Below, in pieces: positions 1 to 12,507 of a stretch of DNA of 15,294 nt. The position numbers and the translations under genes were made by a program. This stretch comes from a bacterium (GTDB lineage: Bacteria; CSSED10-310; JAJRTK01), in contig JAJRTK010000042.1 in the NCBI GenBank assembly GCA_024278345.1, positions 1 to 15,294 of the forward strand. The letters are read 5' to 3'. The notes beneath the pieces were generated by a model, which saw nothing but the letters and a program-made list of their open reading frames with translations, did no database searches and had not been told where the DNA came from. Each line of letters starts with the position of its first letter. The stretch's first letter is position 1.

Positions 1-1
1 A

Positions 2-478
2 GATTCGGCGGCGCCCTCGCTTCCTGGCGATACTCTCGAAGTCATGGCGGTGACTTCCCGAATGACCGGAGATAGCCGGCTGGTAAGTTACGGGGCGATC
101 TTCACTCAGCCGGGGGGCACGCTTTTCCTTGCCCACGTGGAAGATATGGAGATATTCGAGCGGTACATTGGGGTGATTTCGAAGATTCCGCAGATCAACA
201 CAGACGTGGCCCGGGAGGCCATCGTCAAGCAGCTTTTGAAGGAGCCCAGGGATTACATAGAGTCGTGCCGGGAGGTCCTGGAATCTCAGCAACTCCAAAT
301 CCAGGTGGAGTCCATCGTCACGCTTGGCAAGCGTGTGGAGCAGTACAAGAAGCTCATCGAGGACAGGAAAATTGATCTTTTGGTTCTCAATAGCAAGGAC
401 GCGGAGCAGCTCGCCATGCAGGGGCTGGCCTATTCTCTGGCCGTGGAGTTTCGTCACCTTCCCTTACTGATGCTCTGA
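2..478 (+). CDS. Universal stress protein (UspA) family, C-terminal part, 5'-truncated by the window
   Basis: The frame is open to the left edge, so the gene almost certainly starts upstream; the first in-window ATG is at 44. The visible 158 residues show a UspA-like alternation. A beta strand, GTLFLAHVED, is followed by helices (residues around KEPRDYIESCREVLESQ), a strand IQVESIVTLG, then KKLIEDRKIDLLVLNSKD and a final strand HLPLLML. The canonical ATP-binding glycine motif (G-x2-G-x9-G-S/T) is not present: the region reads LAMQGLAYSLAVEFRHLP, so this domain is probably the non-nucleotide-binding type or the second half of a tandem Usp protein. It lies 80 bases upstream of the antiporter start in the same direction, a common partnership in which Usp domains regulate membrane transporters. 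Family assignment is fairly sure; the role is inferred. Confidence 0.7.
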   Translation, partial: DSAAPSLPGDTLEVMAVTSRMTGDSRLVSYGAIFTQPGGTLFLAHVEDMEIFERYIGVISKIPQINTDVAREAIVKQLLKEPRDYIESCREVLESQQLQIQVESIVTLGKRVEQYKKLIEDRKIDLLVLNSKDAEQLAMQGLAYSLAVEFRHLPLLML

Positions 479-488
479 TACGGATTTC

Positions 489-517
489 TTGACCCTGGCG
501 CTACTCTAGCGTGTATT
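489..517 (+). promoter_or_regulatory. Possible sigma-70-type promoter for the antiporter
   Basis: TTGACC at 489-494 is separated by 17 bases from TGTATT at 512-517. Transcription from here would begin near 524, about 35 bases before the ATG at 559. The match at -10 is only moderate. The placement supports the ATG start over the GTG at 511, because that GTG would overlap the -10 box. Confidence 0.35.
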
Positions 518-558
518 TCCTTCTCCTTAGCGAATCAACCCAAGGGAAACGAAAGCTC

Positions 559-1965
559 ATGAATCTATTCATTGCTTCCACAGCGCAGGTTGCGGGCCAC
601 GATGCTGGAGAGGTCTCCCTTATGGTGACACTTCTCTTTTTGGCGATTCTTGTGGGGCTGATTGTAGCTCTGGCGCTCGAGGAGAAACTCCATGCCAAGA
701 AATCGGTCATTGTAGGTTTAACCGCCATCGTTTCGCTCTTCTTGGGGGATTTTTTCGGGCTCCTCCCCGTGGGAGACGTGACCAATGTGTTCGGACAGGC
801 CATGGAGATTCCCGTTTACATCCCGGCCATCGACTGGAGCGTCATCGCGATCATTTTCGGGTCGAGCCTCTTTGTCGATTTGACGTCGGGGTCGGGTCTC
901 TTTACCTGGATCGCCATCAAGCTGACGAAGGCGTCGAAGGGTGATCCGGTGCGGCTGCTTTGGCTTTATGGCCTGATGACCGTGCTTTTTTCGGCGGTGC
1001 TGAACAACGTGACGGCAATGATTATCGTTGGGTCTCTCACGGGAGTTTCCCTTCGGAAACTGGGGCTGGTGAACAAGCTTTTGGGCTTCTTGCTGGTGGA
1101 GGGACTGCTCACCAACATCGGTGGGCTTCTGACGCTCATCAGCTCGGTGCCAAACATCATTGTGGGAAATGCCGCCGGGATCAGTTTTGTGAGGTTTTTC
1201 CTGACCTCGGCACCTTACGTTGTGGTTTCTACCATAGGGACCTTGCTTTTGGGTGCAAAGCTCTTTGGTATCCGTAGACTGGAGGACCAGGAGGAGCGAG
1301 ATCGGGCGCTACGGTTAGTCGGGAGTTTCGACGAGAACGATGGGATCGAGAGTGCCGGGCTGTTTTGGTTTGGCGCCGTGATGATGGTGCTCTTCATCCT
1401 GACGATTGCATCGACGTCGGTGCTGCCGGTCATCAAGGACTTGGGGATGGGGTTTGTGGCACTAGCGTTCGCCGGGATCATGCTCGTTCGGTATAAGGCC
1501 GAAGCTGATCGGTATTACAAAGCGCTCGACTGGGATCTCCTTGGTTTTTTTGCTGCTCTCTTCGTCGTCATCAACGTGATGGAGCATGCCGAGGTCTTAG
1601 CTCTCATCGGTCAGGGGCTTGCCGCGATGATCGGCCTTGGCGAGACCATGGGGACGGGTGCCATCCTCTTGGCTTCGGCTGGCTTTTCATCGGTGACGGA
1701 CAATATCCCGCTGGCGGCCATGCTGGCGAAGATCCTCCGAGGGCTAGGCACTCCAGGCGACTCCGCCCTTTGGTGGGCCGTGGTATTTGGGGCGAACCTG
1801 GGGGGAAATCTCACTCCTATCGGCTCGGCTTCGACTCTGGTGGCCGTGACAATCATTCACAAAAATGGACTGCGCTTTTCGTTCTTGGACTTTGTGAAGA
1901 CAGCGTTTCCCTACGCTTTAGCCCAAATATCCCTTGCCGTGCTCTATCTGCTTTTGTTCCTCTAG
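559..1965 (+). CDS. NhaD/ArsB-family sodium/proton antiporter (ion transporter superfamily)
   Basis: This 468-aa inner-membrane protein has roughly 11-12 hydrophobic segments. Conserved ion-transporter motifs are visible: NNVTAM at residues 149-154, SSVTDNIP at 377-384, and the glycine-rich GANLGGNLTPIGS starting at about 411, which form the paired half-site reentrant signatures of the NhaD/ArsB/CitM superfamily. The likely reaction is exchange of cytoplasmic Na+ (or Li+) for protons; an arsenite permease is less likely because no ars genes are nearby. I chose ATG 559, preceded by AAGGGA about 11 bases upstream. An in-frame GTG at 511 would add 16 residues (MYFLLLSESTQ...) but has no ribosome-binding site and overlaps a possible promoter. 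The Usp-family gene directly upstream may encode a regulatory partner. No truncation or frameshift is seen. Confidence 0.85.
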   Translation: MNLFIASTAQVAGHDAGEVSLMVTLLFLAILVGLIVALALEEKLHAKKSVIVGLTAIVSLFLGDFFGLLPVGDVTNVFGQAMEIPVYIPAIDWSVIAIIFGSSLFVDLTSGSGLFTWIAIKLTKASKGDPVRLLWLYGLMTVLFSAVLNNVTAMIIVGSLTGVSLRKLGLVNKLLGFLLVEGLLTNIGGLLTLISSVPNIIVGNAAGISFVRFFLTSAPYVVVSTIGTLLLGAKLFGIRRLEDQEERDRALRLVGSFDENDGIESAGLFWFGAVMMVLFILTIASTSVLPVIKDLGMGFVALAFAGIMLVRYKAEADRYYKALDWDLLGFFAALFVVINVMEHAEVLALIGQGLAAMIGLGETMGTGAILLASAGFSSVTDNIPLAAMLAKILRGLGTPGDSALWWAVVFGANLGGNLTPIGSASTLVAVTIIHKNGLRFSFLDFVKTAFPYALAQISLAVLYLLLFL

Positions 1966-2181
1966 GAGCCTGTTGGGCAGCCCCCCAAGCCCAAAACTTA
2001 GGTTTCTTCGCCCGTGGAGGGCATTCCCTGTTGCATCGCCAGATGACGGCTGTCTGGATTTCAGTTAGGCTAGAAGGTGATCCCAGGCGATGCGCGGAGC
2101 AGAACCCGCAATGGGCGAGGGTGCTGTGTCCACGGCGGTTGTTTTTTGAGGGAGGCGACGGGGAGGGGAAGGGCGGCGACC

Positions 2182-5100
2182 TTGGAGGTCCCAAAGAAGA
2201 TAGGTCCCTACCGGATCATTGCAGCCATTGGTCGTGGCGGAATGGGCATTGTCTATCGTGGCGTGGATTTCAAGACCGGCGAGGAGGCCGCGGTCAAGAC
2301 GGTTCGAGGGGCTCGTGAAGGGATGCTGTCAGGGATCCGGCGAGAGATCCGGGCGCTGGCTCGGCTCCGGCATCCGGGGATCATCGGCATCGTTGGGCAT
2401 GGAATCGAGCAAGGAGTTCCCTGGTACGCCATGGAGCTTCTAGAGGGCGAGACCCTTTCGAGGCACACCGTGAGGCTGGCACTTGAGGGCGGTGGGCAGC
2501 GAGGGGCTGATGACTGGGCGGAAGGGAGTTCGGAAGTTGAGGCTGTACTCTTAGCTTCATCCTCTAGTGAAGGCATCGCGGGGAGGAAGCAAGGTGACGC
2601 TGGCGATCTTCTTTCCTCTTCCGCGGCGGCTGTGACCGGTGGGGTGGTGTCTAGCGAGGGCAAGTGCGGATTTTCGAAGCCTTCCGCGCCGAAGCTGTTG
2701 ACGTGGAGTGGCGATACCCAGAGGCGAAAGCTGGACCCATGGTTCATTCGCCACGTGCTGACCTTGATTCGGCGGTTGTGTGCTCCCCTTTCGTTTCTTC
2801 ATGGCGAAGGGATCGTGCATCTCGACCTGAAGCCTGGGAACATTCTGGTCCAATCCGATGGAAACCCGGTACTCGTGGATTTTGGGTTGGTTTCCCGGTT
2901 TGGCGGTGGGTTGAGCCGGGAGGCTCTGGAGCCGGAGTGGACGGGGGGGGGCACGCCGCACTACATGGCGCCGGAAAAACTACTAGGGGAATTGGTGGAT
3001 GCCCGGGCCGATCTTTACGGATTGGGTTGTATTCTGTACGAGTTGCTCGTGGGGAGGCCCCCTTTTTTGGGGCGGACAAAACGGGAAGTAGCCCGGAGAC
3101 ATCTGACAGCGGATCCGGTGGCGCCGTCCAAGTTGGTGGAGGGGGTCCCGGTCGCTTTGGACGAGCTGATCTTAGGGCTCTTGGAAAAGAACCCCCAGAA
3201 CCGGGTGGGTTATGCGGCGGATGTGGCATCGGCCCTGGGCCGATTGGGTGCCGAGGAGCCGCTCTGGCCGGGAATGCCGACCTCGAAACCCTACCTTTAC
3301 CGCCCGGAGTTTGCCGGGCGAACGGAGTTTTTGGAGTATCTTGCCGGCCATTTCGCCCGGTTGCGTGAGCGACGGGGAAGTCTTGTGTTGATCGGCGGTG
3401 AACCCGGTGTTGGGAAGACGCGACTCGTGATGGAATTGGGATTTCTGGCTTCCGCGCAAAAGATGCGCGTGATGACCGGTGAGTGCGTCGCGGTGGCGCC
3501 GACGGAAGAAGGGGCGGAGGCCGCGGTGGTCGTTCCTTTGCATGGGTTCAAGAAGGTGCTCCAGGCAATCGGAGATCGCTGCCGCGCTCTGGGCGAGGAA
3601 GAAACGGAGCGGCTTCTGGGGCGCCGGGGACGTGTGTTGGCTCGCTACGAGCGCTCTCTTGAAGGGCTTCCGGGGTTGGAGCGCCATTCGGAGCCGCCGG
3701 AGCTCCCGCCGGAGGCGGCCAGGAATCGGCTTTTTCTTTACCTGACCAGCACTCTGGCGGCTCTTGCCCATCGGCGACCCGTGCTCGTCCTCCTGGACGA
3801 TTTGCACGTCGCTGATGAACTGACCCTGGGTTTCTTGGGGTTCTTGCTTCGCCATGGCTGGTTGGAGAAAATGCCGGTCATGATCGTCGGTACCTATCGC
3901 ACCGAAAAAGTTGGCCAAGAATTGAAAGTTCTTCTGGAAACGGGTTCCGCGGCTACCCTGGAACTCGAGCGGCTGGACGAAGAGGCCGTGAGTGTCATGC
4001 TGAGGAGCATGTTGGCGATGAAAACGGCGCCTCCGGCCTTCGTCGATTTTTTGGCCCGCCAGTCCGAGGGCAACCCCTTCTTCGTTTCGGAATACCTGGG
4101 GACGGCTGTGGGAGTGGGAATTCTTTACCGCGACGAACAGGGTCGTTGGCAGATTGCCGAGACACGGGAGGCCGAGGTCACGGCGGAGACTTTTGAAGCG
4201 CTGCCGTTTCCTCGCTCTCTTCGGGAGCTTATCGAGGAGAGGTTCGAGAGTCTCGCGCCCCTTGCGCATCGATTGCTGGAGTGTGCGGCGGTTTTGGGAA
4301 GAAAGATGGAAGAACGCGCATTGATGGCCATGGCGAGGTCGGGGCCGGAAGATCTTTCCGAGGCGCTCGAGGAGCTCTTGGGACAGCAGATCCTAGAGGA
4401 AGTGGGGGACGGGGGGCTAAGATTCGAGCACGAAAAGTTCCGGGAAGTTGCCTACGAGCAAATGGAGTATGCTACGCGCGGAGAGTTGCATCGACGGGCT
4501 GGAGAGGTCTTGTCCCTCTTGAGTCCAAAGCGGGAGGAACGGGACTATCGGGTGTTGGCCTTCCACTTTGAGCGGGCGGGGGACTTGGGGAAGGCGTGCT
4601 GGGCGTATGAAGAAGCCGGGGATCGGATGCAGGAGCGCCGGGGAGCCGAGGAGGCCCTGCGACTTTACGAAAAAGCCCTGGCGCTTTCCCGTGACTCGGA
4701 GGGGTCGCGGATGCACCGAAGGCGGGCAGTACTGCGGCTGAAAAGAGCGCGGATCTTGGAGGAAATGGGGCAAGATCGCCGAGCTTTACAGGTGCTCGGA
4801 CTTTGTGAGGCCGAGGCGCGGGCTGCCTTGGAGACGACGGTTGTCCTCGAAGCTCTGGAGATTCGAGCAAAGATCCTGGCTCGCCTCGGCGCCTTTCCGG
4901 AGGCCCTCCAGGCTCTAGACCAAGCCCTGGCCCTGGCTCATCGCAGGCCGGAACAGAAGACGAAGCTCCTGGAACAGCTTGGCCTGTTGTGGAACCGGTT
5001 GGGCGAAAAGGAGCGGCGGGACGTGGCGAAAAAATGGACGTTTGCTACCGTCCAAGAACCTAAGAACCTCGCGCCGCCGCCGGAGGCTCTGGCACGCCAG

Positions 5101-5187
5101 GGCGCCTCTTCCTTCAAAAATAGTGTGGGCAGGTGCGAAGCAGGGAAAACCGAAGGAAATGGATCGCCAGTGGCGGGCGAACTTTAG
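2182..5187 (+). CDS. Ser/Thr protein kinase fused to AAA/STAND-type ATPase and TPR-like repeats (PknK-like)
   Basis: This is a cytoplasmic protein of about 1001 aa. The N-terminal Hanks-type kinase (residues ~10-330) has glycine loop GRGGMG at 17-22, AVK lysine K39, catalytic loop HLDLKPGN at 213-220 (Leu replaces the HRD Arg), DFG at 233-235 and TPHYMAPE. It looks catalytically competent. An insert of about 85 low-complexity, Ser/Ala/Gly-rich residues (~98-182) separates the N-lobe from the C-lobe. Next comes an AAA_16-like ATPase with Walker A GGEPGVGKT (405-413) and Walker B VLVLLDDLH (D539/D540). Alpha-helical TPR-like repeats follow from about residue 760 to 950. TTG 2182 is chosen because it has a purine-rich GAGGGGAAGGG just upstream and starts right before IGPYRI; a GTG at 2077 would add 35 residues of unlikely composition. 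It is the first gene of the BREX-like cluster, ending 11 bases before the next start. It is the only clearly active enzyme there and may phosphorylate its neighbours (inference). Confidence 0.8.
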   Translation: MEVPKKIGPYRIIAAIGRGGMGIVYRGVDFKTGEEAAVKTVRGAREGMLSGIRREIRALARLRHPGIIGIVGHGIEQGVPWYAMELLEGETLSRHTVRLALEGGGQRGADDWAEGSSEVEAVLLASSSSEGIAGRKQGDAGDLLSSSAAAVTGGVVSSEGKCGFSKPSAPKLLTWSGDTQRRKLDPWFIRHVLTLIRRLCAPLSFLHGEGIVHLDLKPGNILVQSDGNPVLVDFGLVSRFGGGLSREALEPEWTGGGTPHYMAPEKLLGELVDARADLYGLGCILYELLVGRPPFLGRTKREVARRHLTADPVAPSKLVEGVPVALDELILGLLEKNPQNRVGYAADVASALGRLGAEEPLWPGMPTSKPYLYRPEFAGRTEFLEYLAGHFARLRERRGSLVLIGGEPGVGKTRLVMELGFLASAQKMRVMTGECVAVAPTEEGAEAAVVVPLHGFKKVLQAIGDRCRALGEEETERLLGRRGRVLARYERSLEGLPGLERHSEPPELPPEAARNRLFLYLTSTLAALAHRRPVLVLLDDLHVADELTLGFLGFLLRHGWLEKMPVMIVGTYRTEKVGQELKVLLETGSAATLELERLDEEAVSVMLRSMLAMKTAPPAFVDFLARQSEGNPFFVSEYLGTAVGVGILYRDEQGRWQIAETREAEVTAETFEALPFPRSLRELIEERFESLAPLAHRLLECAAVLGRKMEERALMAMARSGPEDLSEALEELLGQQILEEVGDGGLRFEHEKFREVAYEQMEYATRGELHRRAGEVLSLLSPKREERDYRVLAFHFERAGDLGKACWAYEEAGDRMQERRGAEEALRLYEKALALSRDSEGSRMHRRRAVLRLKRARILEEMGQDRRALQVLGLCEAEARAALETTVVLEALEIRAKILARLGAFPEALQALDQALALAHRRPEQKTKLLEQLGLLWNRLGEKERRDVAKKWTFATVQEPKNLAPPPEALARQGASSFKNSVGRCEAGKTEGNGSPVAGEL
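2943..2951 (+). repeat. G9 homopolymer tract in the kinase activation segment
   Basis: Nine consecutive G bases encode part of the Thr-Gly-Gly-Gly-Thr stretch just before PHYMAPE. A one-base slip would shift the frame in the activation segment and remove the ATPase and TPR parts. Poly-G slippage causes phase variation of pglX in Streptomyces, so the tract is worth noting, though it may simply reflect GGG glycine codons. Confidence 0.5.
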
Positions 5188-5191
5188 AGCT

Positions 5192-5195
5192 GGAG
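5192..5195 (+). promoter_or_regulatory. Ribosome-binding site deciding the start of the PglW-PglZ-like gene
   Basis: GGAG lies 3 and 6 bases ahead of the paired ATG codons at 5199 and 5202, just after the upstream kinase stop (5185-5187). The earlier in-frame GTG at 5133 has no good site and would make a 55-base overlap. This indicates translational coupling of the two genes. Confidence 0.5.
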
Positions 5196-5198
5196 CAA

Positions 5199-8100
5199 AT
5201 GATGGCGCGATGGGTGGAATGGGGGCGCGGCCATGGAGCCGTGGGAGAAATCCCTTTTCTTCAAAGGGCTCTGGACGAAGGGTGGACGGTCTATTCCGAT
5301 TTGCCCATTCCTATCCCCGGAGCCGGTATCGATTTCGTAGATGCCGTAATCATCGGCCATGGAAGAATTCACATCCTTGATAGAGGTAATTCTTTGCGGG
5401 TTCTGGAACCGGGACTGTTCGATTGGCAGGTTGACAGGGGCCGGTGGATCAGGAACCCCCTCCGGCGGCTTCGAAGCAAGGCTTTTGAGCTCAGGCGCCT
5501 CCTGCGGCGCCATGCGAAATGGACCGGTCCGCTGGATCTCCGCGCTCACTTTTTTTTGCCCGGGCTTGGGGCAAAAGTTGGAGACTGCGGGGAAGATCTT
5601 TCCCCATGGGCGGAGGCCGCGGGGATTGTAACCCGGGAAACAGTGGGGAGACTCTTCTCTGAGGATTCGGGGGCGCCTCTTTTTCGGGGTCACCGCCCCG
5701 GCAAGGGGGAAACCGAGGCGAGTAGCGGGTGCGGGCCCGCGCCCGATGGGAGCGGAAGACAACTCAAAAACGGACCATCGGCTCAGCGGGAGAGCCCTTT
5801 GACTCCGTGCCATCAGTCGGTGGATCGCCTCTTTTGCGAGGCCCTGGAAAGCGGTTTGTGGGCGACGCGGGATGCGCGGCCTTTTCGGGCTCCCGTGGGC
5901 GATTGGCAGCCGGTGTCGATCTTGGAATGTGGGTCCAGGTTTTCTGATTACGAAGCGGTTCACCTCCAGAACGGTCGGCGGGCTCTCTTGCGGCGGTACG
6001 CGGCAGGAACGGGGAAGAGATGGGAAGATCGGGCGCTTTGGGAGATGGAGCTTTTCCGGGAGTTGGCTCGGTTGCCATGGTTTCCCGAGGCGTCCGGTGC
6101 CATGGAGTTAGAGGGGGCGTGGGGCCAGGTGTTCGAGTGGGTGGAGGGGATCACTTTGGCCACTTGGGTGCGCCGTTATAAAAAGGGGGGGCTTCGCCAA
6201 CGCTTGTCTATTGCCAGGGCCGTGGCTACCGCGGTTGAAGAACTTCATGGAATAGGTCTGACCCACGGGAATCTGGGGCCTTTGAGCGTTTTGGTCGAGG
6301 ATGCTCCGTCGCCCTCTCGCGTGACGCTTTTGCCCTTCTCCCTTGACCGTTCGGTCAAGGCGGGAACCGCATCGAGGTTGGCCTGGACCAGGGATTCCCA
6401 TCGCTTTTTGGCTCCGGAGATCCTAAAGTTCGGGGGGAGGCCATCAGCGCTGGCCGATCGGTTTGGGTTGGGCCTTCTTTTGTTCGACCTTCTGGCGGAG
6501 GGGTTGGGGGCCACTGGGACTAGAACCGATTTTGTGTCGAGTCGGCCGGTTTTCCGGAAGTGGCCGGCGGAAGCACGGCGTTGGCTGGAACCTCTTGTGG
6601 AAAGCCTCCTTGATGCCCGGCCTTGGAAGCGAATCATGGCTGGGCTCGGGTCCGCGCCTGTCCATGGGACGGCAAGGACTGTCTTGGACGATTCTTCTTC
6701 TGGTTGCCTTCCGCTCGCGCCGCTCCCGTCCGCTACTTCGCGGTCCTGGGGTACTTTTTTGTCGCTCCACTCCAGTGCGCACCGTCCGTCCCTTGTCGCT
6801 CTTTTGCGGGAAGGTTCTTCTCAAGCGGGATCGCCCCCGTCCCATGCCGAAGGGCCTCCTGACGGACAGGGGGGGGCGGCGACCGGGCCGGTGCCGCCCT
6901 TGGAGGCCGGTGCCCAGATCGGGGCTGGGTTGCGGATTTTGCGTCTACTGGCATGGGGGAGCCGCATGGCCGTCTACGAGGTGCAAAAGCCAGCCGAGGA
7001 ATCGCCGCTGGTGCTGAAGGTTGCCCACGGGTTGGAGCGGGCCAGGAGGGCCTTGAAAAGAGAAGGCGTGCTTTTGCGGCGGCTTCGTCATCCCAGGTTG
7101 GTGCATTGTCATGGGGCCGGGCCGCCCGTGGATGGTCGGCCGAGTCTTCTTCTGGGAAAGGCCCCCGGGCGGCCGCTTTCCCAGCTCATTGGCCAAGGCG
7201 AGCTCGAGGAACCGGTGGCTCGGCGTTTCAGCTTGGATCTCATGGACATTCTGGCCTATTTTCATCGCGAGGGAGTTGTCCACCGGGACTTGAATCCAGG
7301 ACACCTCATGGTGGAGGGAGGGCGCTTGACGGTCCTGGATCTGTCCGCGGAAGAGGCGGTCCCCAACCCGCTCTACCGGGATCCCGCCGTCTGCCGCGGG
7401 GATCGCGGTTCTGTTCGGTGTTTGGAGGAGGGAGGAGCCAGCCCGCGTTCCAGGGGCTCCGCCCGCTTTTGGAGCTCCGGGTCGGACCGGTATTCGGCTG
7501 CCCTTTGCCTTTTCGAGCTCTTCACGGGACGGTTGCCCTTTCCGGGGGCCCCTCGGCCCGGGTTGCATCCAGAGCTTTCGCCAGCTCTCTTTTCCGTAGG
7601 GGATGGCGGATTGTTGGTAGGCTTTTTTCGCCGGGCTCTGGACCCCGACGCGTCGAAGCGATTTCAATCGGCCCAGGAGATGCGCCAGGCCCTGGTGACG
7701 GCCCTCCGACATGGCAAAAGCGAGCGTGCTTCCCGTCGGTTGCCGGTGGTGGGCCGGCTGCTACCAGCTTCACCTCTGGAGGCTTTAAACCTCGATCCCT
7801 GCACGGTTCGGGCTCTTGGCCGAGCGGGGCTTTACACGGTGAGGGAGCTCTTGGCTTCGGGGGCGGAGGTCTGGTGTCGCGTGGAAGGGATGGGCCGCGC
7901 CGCCATCGAGGAGCTCAAGCGGTGGAACCGCACCCTGTCGGTTTCCAGAGGCGATCTTTACGTCGAAGAACTGGGGCTGCCGGAGGCGCCCTTGTTTGGC
8001 CCGTTGGGGGCCCATGAGGCCAGTTTGAGTCTGTTGGGCTATTCGGATCGGCTCTGCCAGCGTTTGAATGAGTTGGGGTTCCGGACCCTTGGGCAGCTTG

Positions 8101-11027
8101 CATCCATGGGGCGCAGAGAGCTCCGTGGCCTGCCGGGAATCGGGCCGGCGGTGGTGGGGAGGCTCCTCAAGGGAATGCTTGGCCGAATGGCGGCGGAGGA
8201 AGGCGGTCGATTGGCCCCCGTGGGGATGGGGGAGTTGTGGCAGGCGATGGCCGGGGGCTTGAGCAACCGAGAGCAGGGATTCTTGAAGAGCCGCTACGGC
8301 TTGGAGGGAAGCAAACCGAAACCACTCTCCGTTGCGGCGCGTCGGGCCGGCTTTTCCCCGGGTTTGGCAGAGCTTCACGAGGGGGAATGTCTTGCCGCTC
8401 TCGATGGAGAAACGGTGGCCAGTGCATTGGAAATCCTGGAGGCAAGGCTTTGGGATGCTCCAGGCGCTCTTCCTTTGGAGAGCTTGGTGAAATCCGTCCT
8501 GGAGTGGTGGCTCGAAGATCCGGCTTGCTCCGCCCCGGGGATGGTGAGGCTGCTTTGCCATGTTGGCGGGCTCAAGCTTTTAGAGGGGCGCAGGTTCCAG
8601 GGAGTCTGGGTCTCCTTGGACGCCCATGGCGGTGAGCAGTTGACCAGGTTGGCGACGGCGGCTTCGCGGCTGGCCGGTTTGCCAGCGGGGGCGAAGCTGG
8701 ATCTGGTGGAGAGGTCGCTAAGAGATATTTCCATGGGCTTTTCGGGCAGTGCAGGCAGGAGTGGATTTTGCGATGCCGTGGCTCTGGGCGAGCTGCTGGC
8801 GACCGGGGGCCCACAGGTTTTTGCATCCCTTGAGGAGTCCGAGGCCGGGAGCGATTCTGCATACCTGGCCGGACCTGGGGAGGCGGATCGGGAGCGGTGC
8901 GGATGGGATGCCGCAGATTGGCTGTTGGAGTCGCTGAACGTCGGTATGGGCCCGGCTTCCGCCCTGCTAGAAACGCGGGCCGGGGAAAAAAAGACCCCTG
9001 GACCGCCGATGGTTCCGGATTTTCGTGGATGGTTCCGCCAATGCGGTGTCGATGGCGGTTTTCTTGGCTGGATAAGCCAGGGAGGTCGGCCCATGCGCCT
9101 GATGATGACCGGGATGATCGACGGCGAGAGGGCTGGCCATTCCGGCCACCCAATGACGCCACGAGGCCTCAAGAAGTGTTTCGGGAAAATCCGTCCTCCC
9201 GTGGCTTCGGAAGAGCTTCGAGACTGGACTTTCGTCTTGGTGAATCAAGTTCTGTCGAAGCAAAAGCCAGCTTGGAGGCAGGGCTGTATTCGGCGGGCGG
9301 AGCGCCTGGCTCGGGATTTGGGAATTCCGCTGGGATCGAGCCCCGTGCTTCCCGCGGTGTGGAGGGCTTGGTCCCGGGAGATGGGAGAGCGCCTGGTTTC
9401 GGGTCTTCCCGTCGAAGACATTCTTAGGATCATGGAGAGGCATGCTCAGCGCTGCCGTGAGCCCGAGGAATGGGAACTCTTGCTCCAGCTTGCCAGGCTG
9501 TCGAGATTTCTGAGAAGTAGGGAAAACCTTTCCATCCAGCCCGAAGGGTCCGAAAAACTTGAGTTTGGGGATTGGAAGCAGCTCTACCAGCGGGAACTGG
9601 CTTTTGGCGAGCTGGCGGCTGTCCAGCTTCGCCAAGCCCTGGAGCGTACGCCCCGTCACCACTCCACGGCCAGGAAGCTGCTGGAGCGGTTCAAGATTGC
9701 TCACGACCAATGGAGTCGCCAGTTTGGCAAGCTCCTGGCCGAAGATTACCAGGCCCTCCGAGAGAGGGAGGGCCTGCCTGGGATGCTCTATCGGCAGGTG
9801 GTTCCCTTGCTGCCCCAAAAACGGATCCTTTGCCTCGTGGCCAGAGGTCAGCCTGGATGGGGCTGGATCCGTCTGCTTTGGGAGATTGGCGGCCGGTGCG
9901 ATCTATGGCCTCGCGGACTCGGGGCCGGACTACGGCCAGGTGAACTGACGCTGGCTCTGGCTCCCCTTTCCCGTGAACCGGACGCGTTGTTTCGCTCGAT
10001 CCTCCGGAGATTGGGGTTCGGGCGTCCGGGGCGAGTACCGATTTCTGGCAAGGATCCGGCTAGCGGGAAGCGACTGATCGTGGACGAGAGGGAGCCAGAG
10101 AATTGGCGGACCTTCTTTCCCGCTGGCGCCATGGATCTTGACGAGGCGGTGGCAAGGTTTCGCCATGAGCGATGCCGCCTCGTTGTCATGGAGCTCGAGA
10201 ATGCCCTTCGAACATGGGAGAATGGGGTGACGGGAGGCTTTACGAGGCCTTGTGTGTCAGAGAAACTGATCCGGCTGGTCCAGATCGCTCATCTGGAGGG
10301 GTTTCGGATCCTGTTTCTCACGGATGGCGGCACGATTCCTCACTGGCCAGGCGCCGTTGGAGAAGGGCGCGGTTCTCCCCCCAGGGCCAAGGTGGTTCCC
10401 GCGGCCAAGGCACTGGAGGAGGGTTGGGTTGCCATCCCGGACGCCCTGGAGCATACAGCCGCGAGATGGGTCTTCGCCACGGGACTTGGCACCCACCGCG
10501 GGCGGCCACGGGCGGGATATCGCGGCGGCTGTTCGCCGGCGGAGGTCTTGGTTCCAATGGCCTGGCTGGAACCAGGAGGGGATCTGGTTCCGCCCGAGCC
10601 CGCCTGGTGGCACGGGGTTGGCCAAGAAGAATTCCCGGCGGCAAGAGGGGGCCAAGTCCAGGTAGAAGAGACACTGCCGCCTTCTCAAGACCTCGACTTG
10701 ATGGCGAATCCCTTGGAATCACCAACCTTGCCAGCGGAGGAACTGGTCCAGCTAGCGCTTCCCATGGACCTCGACTCGGAGCCTCAGCGGCTCCGGCTTC
10801 CACCGGAACTGGAGCCCGTTCAGAGGAAGGCTCTGGAGAACTTGGCCACCCACCGGGTTTTGGGGGCAGAGGAGCTGGCAGAGCTTCTGGGCGAGCCGGT
10901 CTGGCTGGTTTTGGGCCGGATGGCCCGCCTTCTCATGGAGCTTACGGCGCGGGGAATGGCCTATTTTTCCGTGGAAACCGGTTCCACTGGTCAGGTATGT
11001 TACCGCTGGCTTCCACAAGATCTTTAG
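5199..11027 (+). CDS. Giant PglW-PglZ-like fusion protein of a BREX type 2-derived module (probable pseudoenzyme)
   Basis: This protein of about 1942 aa is open over 5.8 kb. Domains in order: NERD-like (16-105) with Asp45 kept but the E-x-K motif changed to D61-R-G63; pseudokinase (235-460) with HGN at 356-358 instead of HRD and no DFG, APE kept; a second kinase-like domain (578-848) with a lysine in VLKVA, HRDLNPGH at 695-702 (Lys to Asn, Asn to His) and DLS for DFG; two alpha-CTD-like helix-hairpin-helix domains (859-913, 937-995, the latter with LPGIGPAVV); a sigma-region-4-like HTH (1021-1068, starting LSNREQ); a helical middle; a PglZ-like region (~1460-1800); and a winged helix (1869-1942). 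NERD-kinase-HTH is the PglW layout. The PglZ-like part shows LVARGQPGWGW where PglZ has its metal-binding DG motif, LTDGGT at 1708-1713 for the usual SDHG, and RGGCSPAEVLVP at 1775-1786 for HGG-S-x-EV-VP. ATG 5202 is an alternative start. Family relation is inferred from motifs; the function is unknown. Confidence 0.65.
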   Translation: MMARWVEWGRGHGAVGEIPFLQRALDEGWTVYSDLPIPIPGAGIDFVDAVIIGHGRIHILDRGNSLRVLEPGLFDWQVDRGRWIRNPLRRLRSKAFELRRLLRRHAKWTGPLDLRAHFFLPGLGAKVGDCGEDLSPWAEAAGIVTRETVGRLFSEDSGAPLFRGHRPGKGETEASSGCGPAPDGSGRQLKNGPSAQRESPLTPCHQSVDRLFCEALESGLWATRDARPFRAPVGDWQPVSILECGSRFSDYEAVHLQNGRRALLRRYAAGTGKRWEDRALWEMELFRELARLPWFPEASGAMELEGAWGQVFEWVEGITLATWVRRYKKGGLRQRLSIARAVATAVEELHGIGLTHGNLGPLSVLVEDAPSPSRVTLLPFSLDRSVKAGTASRLAWTRDSHRFLAPEILKFGGRPSALADRFGLGLLLFDLLAEGLGATGTRTDFVSSRPVFRKWPAEARRWLEPLVESLLDARPWKRIMAGLGSAPVHGTARTVLDDSSSGCLPLAPLPSATSRSWGTFLSLHSSAHRPSLVALLREGSSQAGSPPSHAEGPPDGQGGAATGPVPPLEAGAQIGAGLRILRLLAWGSRMAVYEVQKPAEESPLVLKVAHGLERARRALKREGVLLRRLRHPRLVHCHGAGPPVDGRPSLLLGKAPGRPLSQLIGQGELEEPVARRFSLDLMDILAYFHREGVVHRDLNPGHLMVEGGRLTVLDLSAEEAVPNPLYRDPAVCRGDRGSVRCLEEGGASPRSRGSARFWSSGSDRYSAALCLFELFTGRLPFPGAPRPGLHPELSPALFSVGDGGLLVGFFRRALDPDASKRFQSAQEMRQALVTALRHGKSERASRRLPVVGRLLPASPLEALNLDPCTVRALGRAGLYTVRELLASGAEVWCRVEGMGRAAIEELKRWNRTLSVSRGDLYVEELGLPEAPLFGPLGAHEASLSLLGYSDRLCQRLNELGFRTLGQLASMGRRELRGLPGIGPAVVGRLLKGMLGRMAAEEGGRLAPVGMGELWQAMAGGLSNREQGFLKSRYGLEGSKPKPLSVAARRAGFSPGLAELHEGECLAALDGETVASALEILEARLWDAPGALPLESLVKSVLEWWLEDPACSAPGMVRLLCHVGGLKLLEGRRFQGVWVSLDAHGGEQLTRLATAASRLAGLPAGAKLDLVERSLRDISMGFSGSAGRSGFCDAVALGELLATGGPQVFASLEESEAGSDSAYLAGPGEADRERCGWDAADWLLESLNVGMGPASALLETRAGEKKTPGPPMVPDFRGWFRQCGVDGGFLGWISQGGRPMRLMMTGMIDGERAGHSGHPMTPRGLKKCFGKIRPPVASEELRDWTFVLVNQVLSKQKPAWRQGCIRRAERLARDLGIPLGSSPVLPAVWRAWSREMGERLVSGLPVEDILRIMERHAQRCREPEEWELLLQLARLSRFLRSRENLSIQPEGSEKLEFGDWKQLYQRELAFGELAAVQLRQALERTPRHHSTARKLLERFKIAHDQWSRQFGKLLAEDYQALREREGLPGMLYRQVVPLLPQKRILCLVARGQPGWGWIRLLWEIGGRCDLWPRGLGAGLRPGELTLALAPLSREPDALFRSILRRLGFGRPGRVPISGKDPASGKRLIVDEREPENWRTFFPAGAMDLDEAVARFRHERCRLVVMELENALRTWENGVTGGFTRPCVSEKLIRLVQIAHLEGFRILFLTDGGTIPHWPGAVGEGRGSPPRAKVVPAAKALEEGWVAIPDALEHTAARWVFATGLGTHRGRPRAGYRGGCSPAEVLVPMAWLEPGGDLVPPEPAWWHGVGQEEFPAARGGQVQVEETLPPSQDLDLMANPLESPTLPAEELVQLALPMDLDSEPQRLRLPPELEPVQRKALENLATHRVLGAEELAELLGEPVWLVLGRMARLLMELTARGMAYFSVETGSTGQVCYRWLPQDL
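6869..6876 (+). repeat. G8 homopolymer tract in the linker between the two kinase-like domains
   Basis: Eight G bases encode glycines in a Pro/Gly/Ser-rich linker (around residues 557-560 of the fusion protein). Slippage here would remove the second kinase-like, HTH and PglZ-like parts. It may be incidental to glycine codon use in this GC-rich gene. Confidence 0.4.
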
Positions 11028-11050
11028 GGGCGGCCGCCCACCCGAAAGGC

Positions 11051-11055
11051 AGGAG
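11051..11055 (+). promoter_or_regulatory. Ribosome-binding site of the BrxD-like gene
   Basis: AGGAG abuts an ATG at 11056 with no spacing but is 6 bases ahead of the in-frame ATG at 11062. This favours 11062 as the start. Confidence 0.55.
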
Positions 11056-11061
11056 ATGTGC

Positions 11062-12507
11062 ATGAGAACGGCTATCAGACAGCGAAAGCCGGGTGCCGGA
11101 TGGTCTCGCTTCCTCTCCGTGTCGGAGGGGCTGGCCTGGATCGATCTGCTGGAAGAGGTTCGGGTAGGGCGGTTTCCTCGGGAGTTGATCCCACTGCTCC
11201 CGGGATTGGGGCGCGGGTCGAAGCTCTACGGCGGCGCTGCTCACGTCATCCAAGATCCTGCCACGGACGGATTGGCCAGAGAGTTCGATCTCTTGGCGGA
11301 AGGCCATTCCTGGCGCCGCTGGATCATCGGAGATCCAACTTGGAGCCGGCGCAGGTTTCTCTTTCACGTAAGAGAAACCGCGTTGGAGCGTGGTTTCGCA
11401 GTCAGCTTGGTAACCCTCCGCCCTCCTTCCATGGCAGGGGAAGATCTAGTGGGGTTTTCCCAACGCCTTCTTTCCAGCCTTGAGACATCCGCTTTCCCGG
11501 CGCCGGCCTTGGCTCCGCTGCTCCAGGTTTGGCTGCTGGAGATGGGCGAAGCCGTCGGCGGACTCGATGCTGACTCAAGTCCATCCAAGGAACTAAACCG
11601 GGCGATCCAAAGCTCTCTTGTCCACTTGAAAGGCCTGGGGGCCCAGCTTCCAAATGCCTATTTCGAAGCTTTGTCAAGGGAGCGGTTCCAGGAGGCCGCG
11701 AGGCTCCTTGACTGGTGTATGGGCCGAGAAAGCATCCCCGTGCGGCAGGCCAGGGCTCTGGGGCTTTCCAGGAAGCTCGACGCCGCGGGCGCCGGGAGCT
11801 TGGTCCGGTTGGGGGTCGCGCTACTCCGCCAGACCGGCCACCCGGGATGGCTCCTCCTCGTTGACGGTTTGGCGAATTCCGAGGATCCCTCCAACGGCCC
11901 TGAAAAGCCGTCGTTTGCCATCCCGGACGGTTTCCTGAAACTTCTTGCCGGCGGTCTCCTGCCCTGTACCGGACTTGCTTTGGCTGTAGACCGGGAATGT
12001 TTCACCGCATTTGAAAAGGACCGCTCCGGTCTCGCCGCCGCGGAACGTGCAACAGAGAATCCCGGGACTCCGTGGGAAGGCCAGTGGGAAATTCCCTCTT
12101 TTTTCGCCGGAGATCCCGAAACTCTTCTCAGCCTGGGCCGGCGGTTGGCCCAGGGCTGTCCGTGGCTTCGCGGCCTTGGGGACGGTGACGGGGAAAAAGC
12201 TCTCCAGGCTTTGTTCACTGCCCTTGACGTGGCGGAGAAGAACTCTGGCCCAGAATTCTTCCTTCAGGCCCTGGCATGGTGGCTGCTGGAAATACGGCGG
12301 GGCCAGAATGCTCCCATGGGAGAAGCCCAGGCCTCGCGTTTGGTGGCCAAGGCCGTGGAGTGGGCTCAAGGTCCGTTCCCCAAAGGCGGATCCGAAGGGA
12401 AGGCGAAACCGCCGGCGCAAGCAGGGCAGGAAGCTCCCGCCCCATTGCCAGACGCCATTGAGCTATCGCTGTTCCAGGAAGAAGAGGCCTCGGTCAACGA
12501 AGAATGA
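11062..12507 (+). CDS. BrxD-like (DUF2791-type) BREX ATPase homologue with a lost Walker A motif
   Basis: This protein of about 481 aa is close to BrxD in length. The N-terminal part follows the BrxD/BrxC ATPase pattern: a helix ending EEVRVGRFP, a DL-AEG stretch, then WIIGDPTWSRRRFLFHVRE where the family has I-x-G-x-x-G-x-GK-S/T followed by an L-x-x-V-R-E helix. Here the GK-S/T positions are S95-R96-R97, so ATP binding through a classical P-loop is unlikely. The Walker B-like strand LLLVDGL keeps D268 but has Gly269 where the catalytic Glu would be. The C-terminus is a Pro/Ala-rich tail ending in acidic residues. It lies 34 bases after the PglW-PglZ-like gene and is the last gene of the cluster. 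In type 2 BREX loci brxD accompanies pglW and pglZ, which supports the assignment. The likely role is a non-catalytic scaffold or regulatory subunit (inference). Confidence 0.6.
   Translation: MRTAIRQRKPGAGWSRFLSVSEGLAWIDLLEEVRVGRFPRELIPLLPGLGRGSKLYGGAAHVIQDPATDGLAREFDLLAEGHSWRRWIIGDPTWSRRRFLFHVRETALERGFAVSLVTLRPPSMAGEDLVGFSQRLLSSLETSAFPAPALAPLLQVWLLEMGEAVGGLDADSSPSKELNRAIQSSLVHLKGLGAQLPNAYFEALSRERFQEAARLLDWCMGRESIPVRQARALGLSRKLDAAGAGSLVRLGVALLRQTGHPGWLLLVDGLANSEDPSNGPEKPSFAIPDGFLKLLAGGLLPCTGLALAVDRECFTAFEKDRSGLAAAERATENPGTPWEGQWEIPSFFAGDPETLLSLGRRLAQGCPWLRGLGDGDGEKALQALFTALDVAEKNSGPEFFLQALAWWLLEIRRGQNAPMGEAQASRLVAKAVEWAQGPFPKGGSEGKAKPPAQAGQEAPAPLPDAIELSLFQEEEASVNEE

Follow-up and report, generated by a model that had tools for sequence, protein, structure and literature searches.

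The window analyzed here, 15,294 nucleotides long, is the entire contig G000:C509 from a metagenome-assembled genome (MAG) of 6.06 Mb, which is 88% complete and belongs to the lineage CSSED10-310. It carries a three-gene operon descended from type 2 bacteriophage exclusion (BREX), in which PglW is fused in frame to PglZ and followed by a BrxD-like protein. The catalytic residues of the PglZ, BrxD and NERD parts are lost, PglX, PglY and BrxHI are absent from the locus, and all three reading frames are open. We give an even chance to the reading that this operon was exapted from a divergent type 2 BREX system, of which it is a remnant, and serves as a pseudoenzyme scaffold feeding a kinase/NTPase switch. 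A preliminary description of this DNA had implied a smaller BREX that still works; with the PglZ, BrxD and NERD motifs gone, the loss of the methyltransferase is one among many. That the BREX-derived parts appear, from their motifs, to have lost their chemistry is the point it missed and the main addition of our analysis.

The three genes form a tight array with gaps of 11 bases between the first and second open reading frames (ORF1 and ORF2) and 34 bases between ORF2 and ORF3; coordinates, strand and gaps had been given correctly before.

2182..5187, forward strand: ORF1, Ser/Thr kinase with AAA_16 (STAND-type) ATPase and short TPR tail, 1001 residues (Pfam, motifs)
5199..11027, forward strand: ORF2, PglW-PglZ fusion, 1942 residues, a single continuous frame without internal stop
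11062..12507, forward strand: ORF3, BrxD-like AAA+ protein, 481 residues (NF033438 58.8 bits, hhalign 96.6%)

Ancestry of the three proteins

Profile searches agreed with the earlier naming of the genes as a kinase-AAA-TPR protein, a PglW-PglZ-like fusion and a BrxD-like protein. ORF2 consists of a PglW without its C-terminal domain joined to a PglZ without its N-terminal domains, and it matches PglW (NF033442, 1e-45), PglZ_2 (NF033446, 1e-15), HHH (5e-5) and, weakly, NERD (1.6e-3). The PglW-derived region covers the first ~1275 residues. ORF3 matches BrxC_BrxD (2e-15) and BrxD (NF033438, 5e-16) within its first ~270 residues only (residues ~67-271), and its structure model resembles RdrA and ORC2. 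The NCBIfam scores are far under the curated cut-offs (156 against 990 bits for PglW, 57 against 200 for PglZ_2, 59 against 350 for BrxD), so that these proteins are remote homologues whose names denote ancestry, not function. For ORF1, Pfam matches were Pkinase (6e-39), AAA_16 (8e-23) and a weak TPR.

The PglZ part is the weakest assignment by sequence (hhalign against eight PglZs, 96%). Searching 386 mainly family-level genomes for PglZ gave marginal matches only, and phmmer found no sequence match for this part in the PDB. In one further phylum (195 genomes), six genomes of family f33 encode ~860-residue proteins that match it; four of these matches span nearly all of it, at 28-30% identity and a best E of 1e-27, and the other two are fragmented. 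A chance match is excluded by these full-length relatives, by two NF033446 segments that are collinear within the single ORF2 frame and by the lack of any stop codon in the three frames where ~106 would be expected. The AlphaFold model of this part is weak (mean predicted local distance difference test, pLDDT, 51.9); its best Foldseek match is a BREX PglZ (9zn5_B, E 4e-4), and its best VIA-align matches are PorX structures (7pvk_A, Z 11.9, 274 residues). PorX, a response regulator with a PglZ domain, resembles the window in this fold, but it has phosphodiesterase activity and a receiver domain, neither of which was seen in the window. Sequence and model together indicate that the C-terminal part of ORF2 is a PglZ homologue by sequence and by fold.

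The closest relatives form a divergent BREX-2 clade composed of G003, from the window's own phylum (eight genomes in our comparison set: the source genome G000 and seven others), and the six f33 genomes of another phylum (loci L029/L030 in G003; L145-L157 in G462, G460, G492, G449, G479 and G522). Trees built separately from the two halves of ORF2 placed the window beside this same clade, as its sister and not nested within it, with supports of 100/100 for the PglW half (window branch 1.63) and 100/98 for the PglZ half (window branch 3.75). The tree program cautions that branches as long as those of the window may be joined falsely; the placement is credible because the two independent halves agree and because a second HHH domain is common to ORF2 and this clade only. 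The proposed descent from type 2 BREX is thereby borne out. We rejected the possibility that the fusion is an artefact: it is one frame of 1,942 codons, and both halves come from the same clade.

In all six f33 genomes PglW is 1,360-1,380 residues long, and its NERD and kinase-2 motifs are intact in the five copies aligned. PglZ was read as one ORF in four f33 loci and BrxD matches (~450 residues) in five. By the same method L149 gave neither PglZ nor BrxD, and the L150 PglZ was not recovered as one ORF; the sister PglZ motifs are therefore drawn from four genomes. These four PglZs carry DGCS, PT[IV]T, NAVDD, ADHGH and GFHGG. The sister operon was seen in full at L146, where PADLOC profiles identified PglX, an LmuB-like protein, PglY, PglZ, BrxD and BrxHI, and in part at the others; the helicase of L148 is BrxHI by the same profiles. 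In G003, two contigs carry PglW of this clade, and PglX matches lie downstream of it. The LmuB-like protein (Lamassu family profile) lies between pglX and pglY on the minus strand (L146:14671-16671). A PglW-like match in G095 is a NERD-kinase-kinase protein of another kind.

The window shares with this clade the alpha-CTD and second HHH of PglW, a PglZ that is 27-28% identical and the order PglW..PglZ-BrxD. In the clade, by contrast, the motifs are intact and PglX, PglY and BrxHI are present where operons were read, whereas the window has a fused PglW and PglZ, has lost these three genes as well as catalytic residues, and carries a kinase-AAA-TPR gene upstream. Canonical type 2 BREX/Pgl systems (S. 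coelicolor, Polaromonas, Streptomyces, Thiodictyon) use the same PglW, PglZ and BrxD families, but their PglZs are 20-24% identical to that of the window and the systems comprise six separate genes.

Catalytic residues of the BREX-derived proteins

The domains and altered motifs of ORF2, followed by the Walker A of ORF3, are as follows.

5256..5507, forward strand: NERD nuclease-like domain, motif degraded (Pfam NERD 1.6e-3, alignments)
5916..6623, forward strand: first PglW kinase domain, a pseudokinase (HGNLGP; alignment)
6897..7733, forward strand: second PglW kinase domain (Pfam, alignments)
7773..8168, forward strand: RNA polymerase alpha-CTD/HHH domain, then the second HHH (HHH_5 5e-5, alignments)
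8286..9023, forward strand: PglW wHTH region (alignment; domain names after PMC12839542)
9297..11024, forward strand: PglZ-like part, collinear with residues ~283-858 of the sister PglZ (27.9% identity in 614 blastp columns, E 1e-31)
9843..9854, forward strand: former DGxS motif, now RGQP (Asp to Arg, residue 1549; equivalent of S. coelicolor PglZ D535; alignment)
10200..10214, forward strand: former NAVDD motif, now NALRT (residues 1668-1672; alignment)
10320..10334, forward strand: former [ST]DHGH motif, now TDGGT (Asp kept, both His replaced by Gly and Thr; alignment)
10515..10529, forward strand: former G[YF]HGG motif, now GYRGG (His to Arg, residue 1775; alignment)
10776..10973, forward strand: C-terminal winged helix of type-2 PglZ, retained (AlphaFold/VIA-align, alignment)
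11329..11352, forward strand: degenerate Walker A of ORF3 (alignment)

We aligned the window with 20 PglZs, four from the sister clade and sixteen canonical. ORF2 keeps one of the eight predicted metal/nucleophile positions within DGxS, PTVT, NAVDD, DHGH and GYHGG; in the other PglZs the positions that it has changed show no or almost no variation. The PTVT Thr is deleted together with the next Arg; the two Asp of NAVDD are replaced by Arg and Thr with the Asn kept, and the second of them is Asp in 17 of the 20 other PglZs. Across 39 invariant columns, ORF2 retains 2 of 9 in a catalytic set that we chose from the motifs, one of the two being a predicted metal ligand, against 21 of the 30 others (Fisher p 0.019; a small test). 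The S. coelicolor PglZ mutants D535A and D694A do not complement (PMC4365076); by spacing, D535 is the DGxS Asp, lost in ORF2, and D694 the DHGH Asp, kept in ORF2. In E. fergusonii PglZ, nuclease activity is lost in T538A, which likewise affects an equivalent residue, and reduced in H741A (PMC12205998). The alignment shows that the PglZ part of ORF2 has lost all but one of the residues predicted for a metal-dependent nuclease or phosphodiesterase.

A similar pattern was found in ORF3, where the Walker A GEYG[ST]GKT has become GDPTWSRR (one of seven invariant positions kept) and the Walker B LDEVE has become VDGLA (LDE to VDG). Walker A is intact in canonical BrxDs (GDYGAGKT in one) and reads GEYG[ST]GKT in four sister BrxDs. 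ORF3 is of BrxD ancestry by profile, but it has lost the P-loop of a BrxD ATPase. The NERD motif, VYELD...VVEIKS in the sisters, reads IDFVD...ILDRGN in ORF2, without the E-x-K.

The PglW kinases are less uniform. Normal PglW, too, has a pseudokinase as its first kinase domain (PMC12839542). The second keeps its Lys (LVLKVA), the HRD Asp and the DFG Asp; HKDLKPDN has changed to HRDLNPGH, altering the catalytic-loop Lys and Asn, DFS has changed to DLS, and the Gly loop is degraded. Kinase 2 would accordingly be weakened rather than dead. Relative to the sister clade, ORF2 also lacks the inactive STAND domain that ends PglW after the wHTH region, and the ~280 N-terminal residues of PglZ. Both have been proposed as sensor modules (PMC12839542).

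These observations bear on the possibility that the operon is a reduced yet working BREX-type defence without a methyltransferase, in which PglZ and BrxD would act as enzymes and self would be recognized in another way. The ancestral order PglW..PglZ-BrxD is preserved, PglW kinase 2 retains its core acidic residues and Lys, and E. fergusonii PglZ T538A still partly defends in vivo (PMC12205998). Set against this are the loss of the PglZ metal/nucleophile residues, of the BrxD Walker A and B and of the NERD motif, the absence of PglY from the genome and of BrxHI from the locus, and the loss of both the PglW STAND and the PglZ N-terminal modules. Defence in S. coelicolor needs PglZ, the PglY ATPase and the PglW kinase (PMC4365076), and according to a survey of BREX diversity from 2026 the PglZ of type 2 is active (PMC12839542). 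We consider a working system of this kind improbable.

Missing genes, recurrence and maintenance

PglX, PglY and BrxHI are absent from the locus, as had been described. PglY/BrxC was not found in the rest of the 88%-complete genome, nor was a genuine PglX, the PglX model giving only weak methyltransferase matches (E 1e-24, 1e-7 and 1e-3); BrxHI was sought at the locus and not genome-wide. The position after ORF3, where BrxHI adjoins BrxD in type 2 BREX, holds a convergent transaldolase. Because it lacks the type 2 core (PglX, PglY, BrxHI, active PglZ and BrxD), the operon is BREX-derived and not a BREX system.

It had been suggested that recurrence of the trio without pglX be examined in other genomes. 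No second case was found in the 386 mainly family-level genomes, in the 195 genomes of the further phylum or in IMG/VR. A profile-guided scan of genome_contigs, for which the alignment of eight PglZs was too degenerate, recovered 18 PglZ loci with no fusion and no second case; the readable PglZ genes among them have canonical motifs and mostly adjoin an intact brxD. Exact peptides retrieved no close relative of ORF2 from genome_contigs or IMG/VR, and no plasmid matched the ORF2 parts or ORF3. The source genome has a short second PglZ-like match at G000:C146:1323-1490 (E 4e-7, 725-residue frame).

Is the operon a relic that has not yet broken, a defective BREX-2 locus drifting toward loss? Its very long branches, its missing genes and the lack of relatives sharing the fusion would fit such a history. 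However, the 3,424 codons of the three frames contain no stop, where random sequence of equal composition would give ~106, although the proteins have diverged to 21-28% identity. Such frames would not have survived plain neutral drift, which argues for maintained proteins. The preferential survival of structural over catalytic residues (21/30 versus 2/9), together with the open frames, makes plain decay unlikely; codon-position G+C is similar to that of the neighbouring genes, and the tight operon spacing is kept. We regard the relic as an unlikely explanation.

The flanking genes are, by profile, those named in the preliminary description: an ArsB/CitMHS antiporter on one side and the transaldolase on the other. 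A search for an empty site, made with the antiporter, gave no match to it at E 1e-20 among the other seven genomes of the phylum. The G+C content is 55-56% at the antiporter end (window 1-2000) and 61-65% across the module (2000-12500). No RNA families or tRNAs were found in the window. A scan for promoters and terminators was uninformative (no promoter-like sites; 19 terminator-like sites against 15.4 expected).

ORF1 and a possible signalling switch

ORF1 looks like the only fully catalytic member of the three judging by its motifs, which are complete for both kinase and P-loop (AAVK Lys39, HLDLKPGN, DFG, GGEPGVGKT, LLDD). Its start is a TTG preceded by purine-rich GGGGAGGGGAAGGG, and an in-frame GTG also lies upstream at 2077. 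Its Pkinase matches fall in two stretches, divided by an insert:

2473..2751, forward strand: Ser/Gly-rich insert of ~90 residues between the two lobes of the ORF1 kinase domain (Pkinase matches on either side)

This insert is a possible autophosphorylation region. Kinase-AAA-TPR proteins are hugely expanded in the phylum: G000 has at least 35 matches to ORF1 and G003 has 103 (E 1e-40), mostly in frames of 1,100-1,400 residues. ORF1 is 36-50% identical to its paralogues in these two genomes, which carry 200-400 more residues of TPR; it is shortened in that region and ends directly before ORF2. We rejected an insertion-truncated gene with its remainder after ORF3, as no remnant was found there.

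ORF1 is tied to ORF2 and ORF3 by position alone. The earlier view of the trio as one module is well founded for ORF2 and ORF3, whose order is still the ancestral PglW..PglZ-BrxD one, and is less secure for ORF1. Alternatively, ORF1 could be an unrelated neighbour, leaving ORF2-ORF3 as the BREX-derived pair, which is compatible with the other readings. Its many paralogues would fit this, as would the finding that no ORF1 relative lies near the sister BREX-2 operons in any fetched stretch; the 11-base gap on the same strand and a TPR end shortened exactly where ORF2 begins argue otherwise. An unrelated ORF1 is possible but appears the less likely case.

Under the exaptation reading, ORF2 and ORF3 would be kept as a non-enzymatic, probably DNA-binding assembly of two HHH domains, wHTHs, a pseudokinase, a weakened kinase, a dead PglZ and a dead BrxD. 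This assembly could act as a scaffold or sensor, and the Ser/Thr kinase/STAND ATPase of ORF1 would supply the chemistry under its control, phosphorylating a target or the complex once a nucleic acid or other signal is bound. We lean slightly toward a defence-derived signalling switch as the output, over ordinary regulation. That the whole BREX-2 assembly has turned into such a scaffold, with the dead fusion and dead BrxD sensing nucleic acid and switching the adjacent kinase/STAND ATPase, for defence or regulation without methylation or BREX enzyme activity, is a tentative proposal.

A special case of the exaptation reading is a domesticated regulator with no role in defence, a DNA-bound scaffold coupling the ORF1 kinase to physiology. 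The antiporter and transaldolase flanks, a contig on which no other defence genes were recognized, the retained HHH and wHTH domains and the expansion of kinase-AAA-TPR proteins are all consistent with it. However, the data are compatible with defence as well, and only 2-3 kb of contig flank the module on either side. We view this special case with some doubt.

Several points weigh against exaptation into a scaffold. PglX or PglY could lie on DNA missing from the MAG. The operon is a single copy in our data, so purifying selection is not measurable, and the very long PglZ branch (3.75) fits relaxed constraint too and makes the tree placement unsure. The PglZ part is poorly modelled (pLDDT 52), ORF1 may lie next to ORF2 by chance, and kinase 2 of ORF2, with its Lys and two Asp kept, may still be active.

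Other known systems are more distant. The MADS kinase MAD6 shares NERD and two kinase domains with the window, and the sister PglWs score higher on its model (424-429 bits, cut-off 460) than on the PglW model (379-411). The window, however, scores 140 bits against that 460, its locus has no methyltransferase, and its PglZ part and BrxD link it to BREX-2; a literature search on MADS components returned nothing relevant. The AAA+ family of Shango SngB is related to BrxD, but ORF3 scores 22.8 bits on SngB and 56.4 on BrxD, and the locus lacks SngA (TerB-like) and the SngC helicase. Elsewhere in the source genome, a second BrxD-like ATPase (159 bits) adjoins a large ORF with a DEAD-box-helicase-like start (L026, G000:C278, 5635-8135), possibly a Shango-like system. 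We came across neither a PglW-PglZ fusion nor a set of BREX-derived pseudoenzymes in the literature searched, which did not cover preprints and most subscription journals.

BREX enzymes are gaining roles one by one, with PglZ as a nuclease and PglW as a kinase and sensor. A natural locus that has the PglW, PglZ and BrxD folds but lacks a methyltransferase and nearly all of the catalytic residues separates scaffold from chemistry, although it occurs only once, in a metagenome assembly, and its function is inferred. It makes testable whether a BREX scaffold alone recognizes invading DNA or signals through phosphorylation, and it suggests that parts of a defence system, placed behind a working protein kinase, were put to new use as a sensor or scaffold without enzyme activity.

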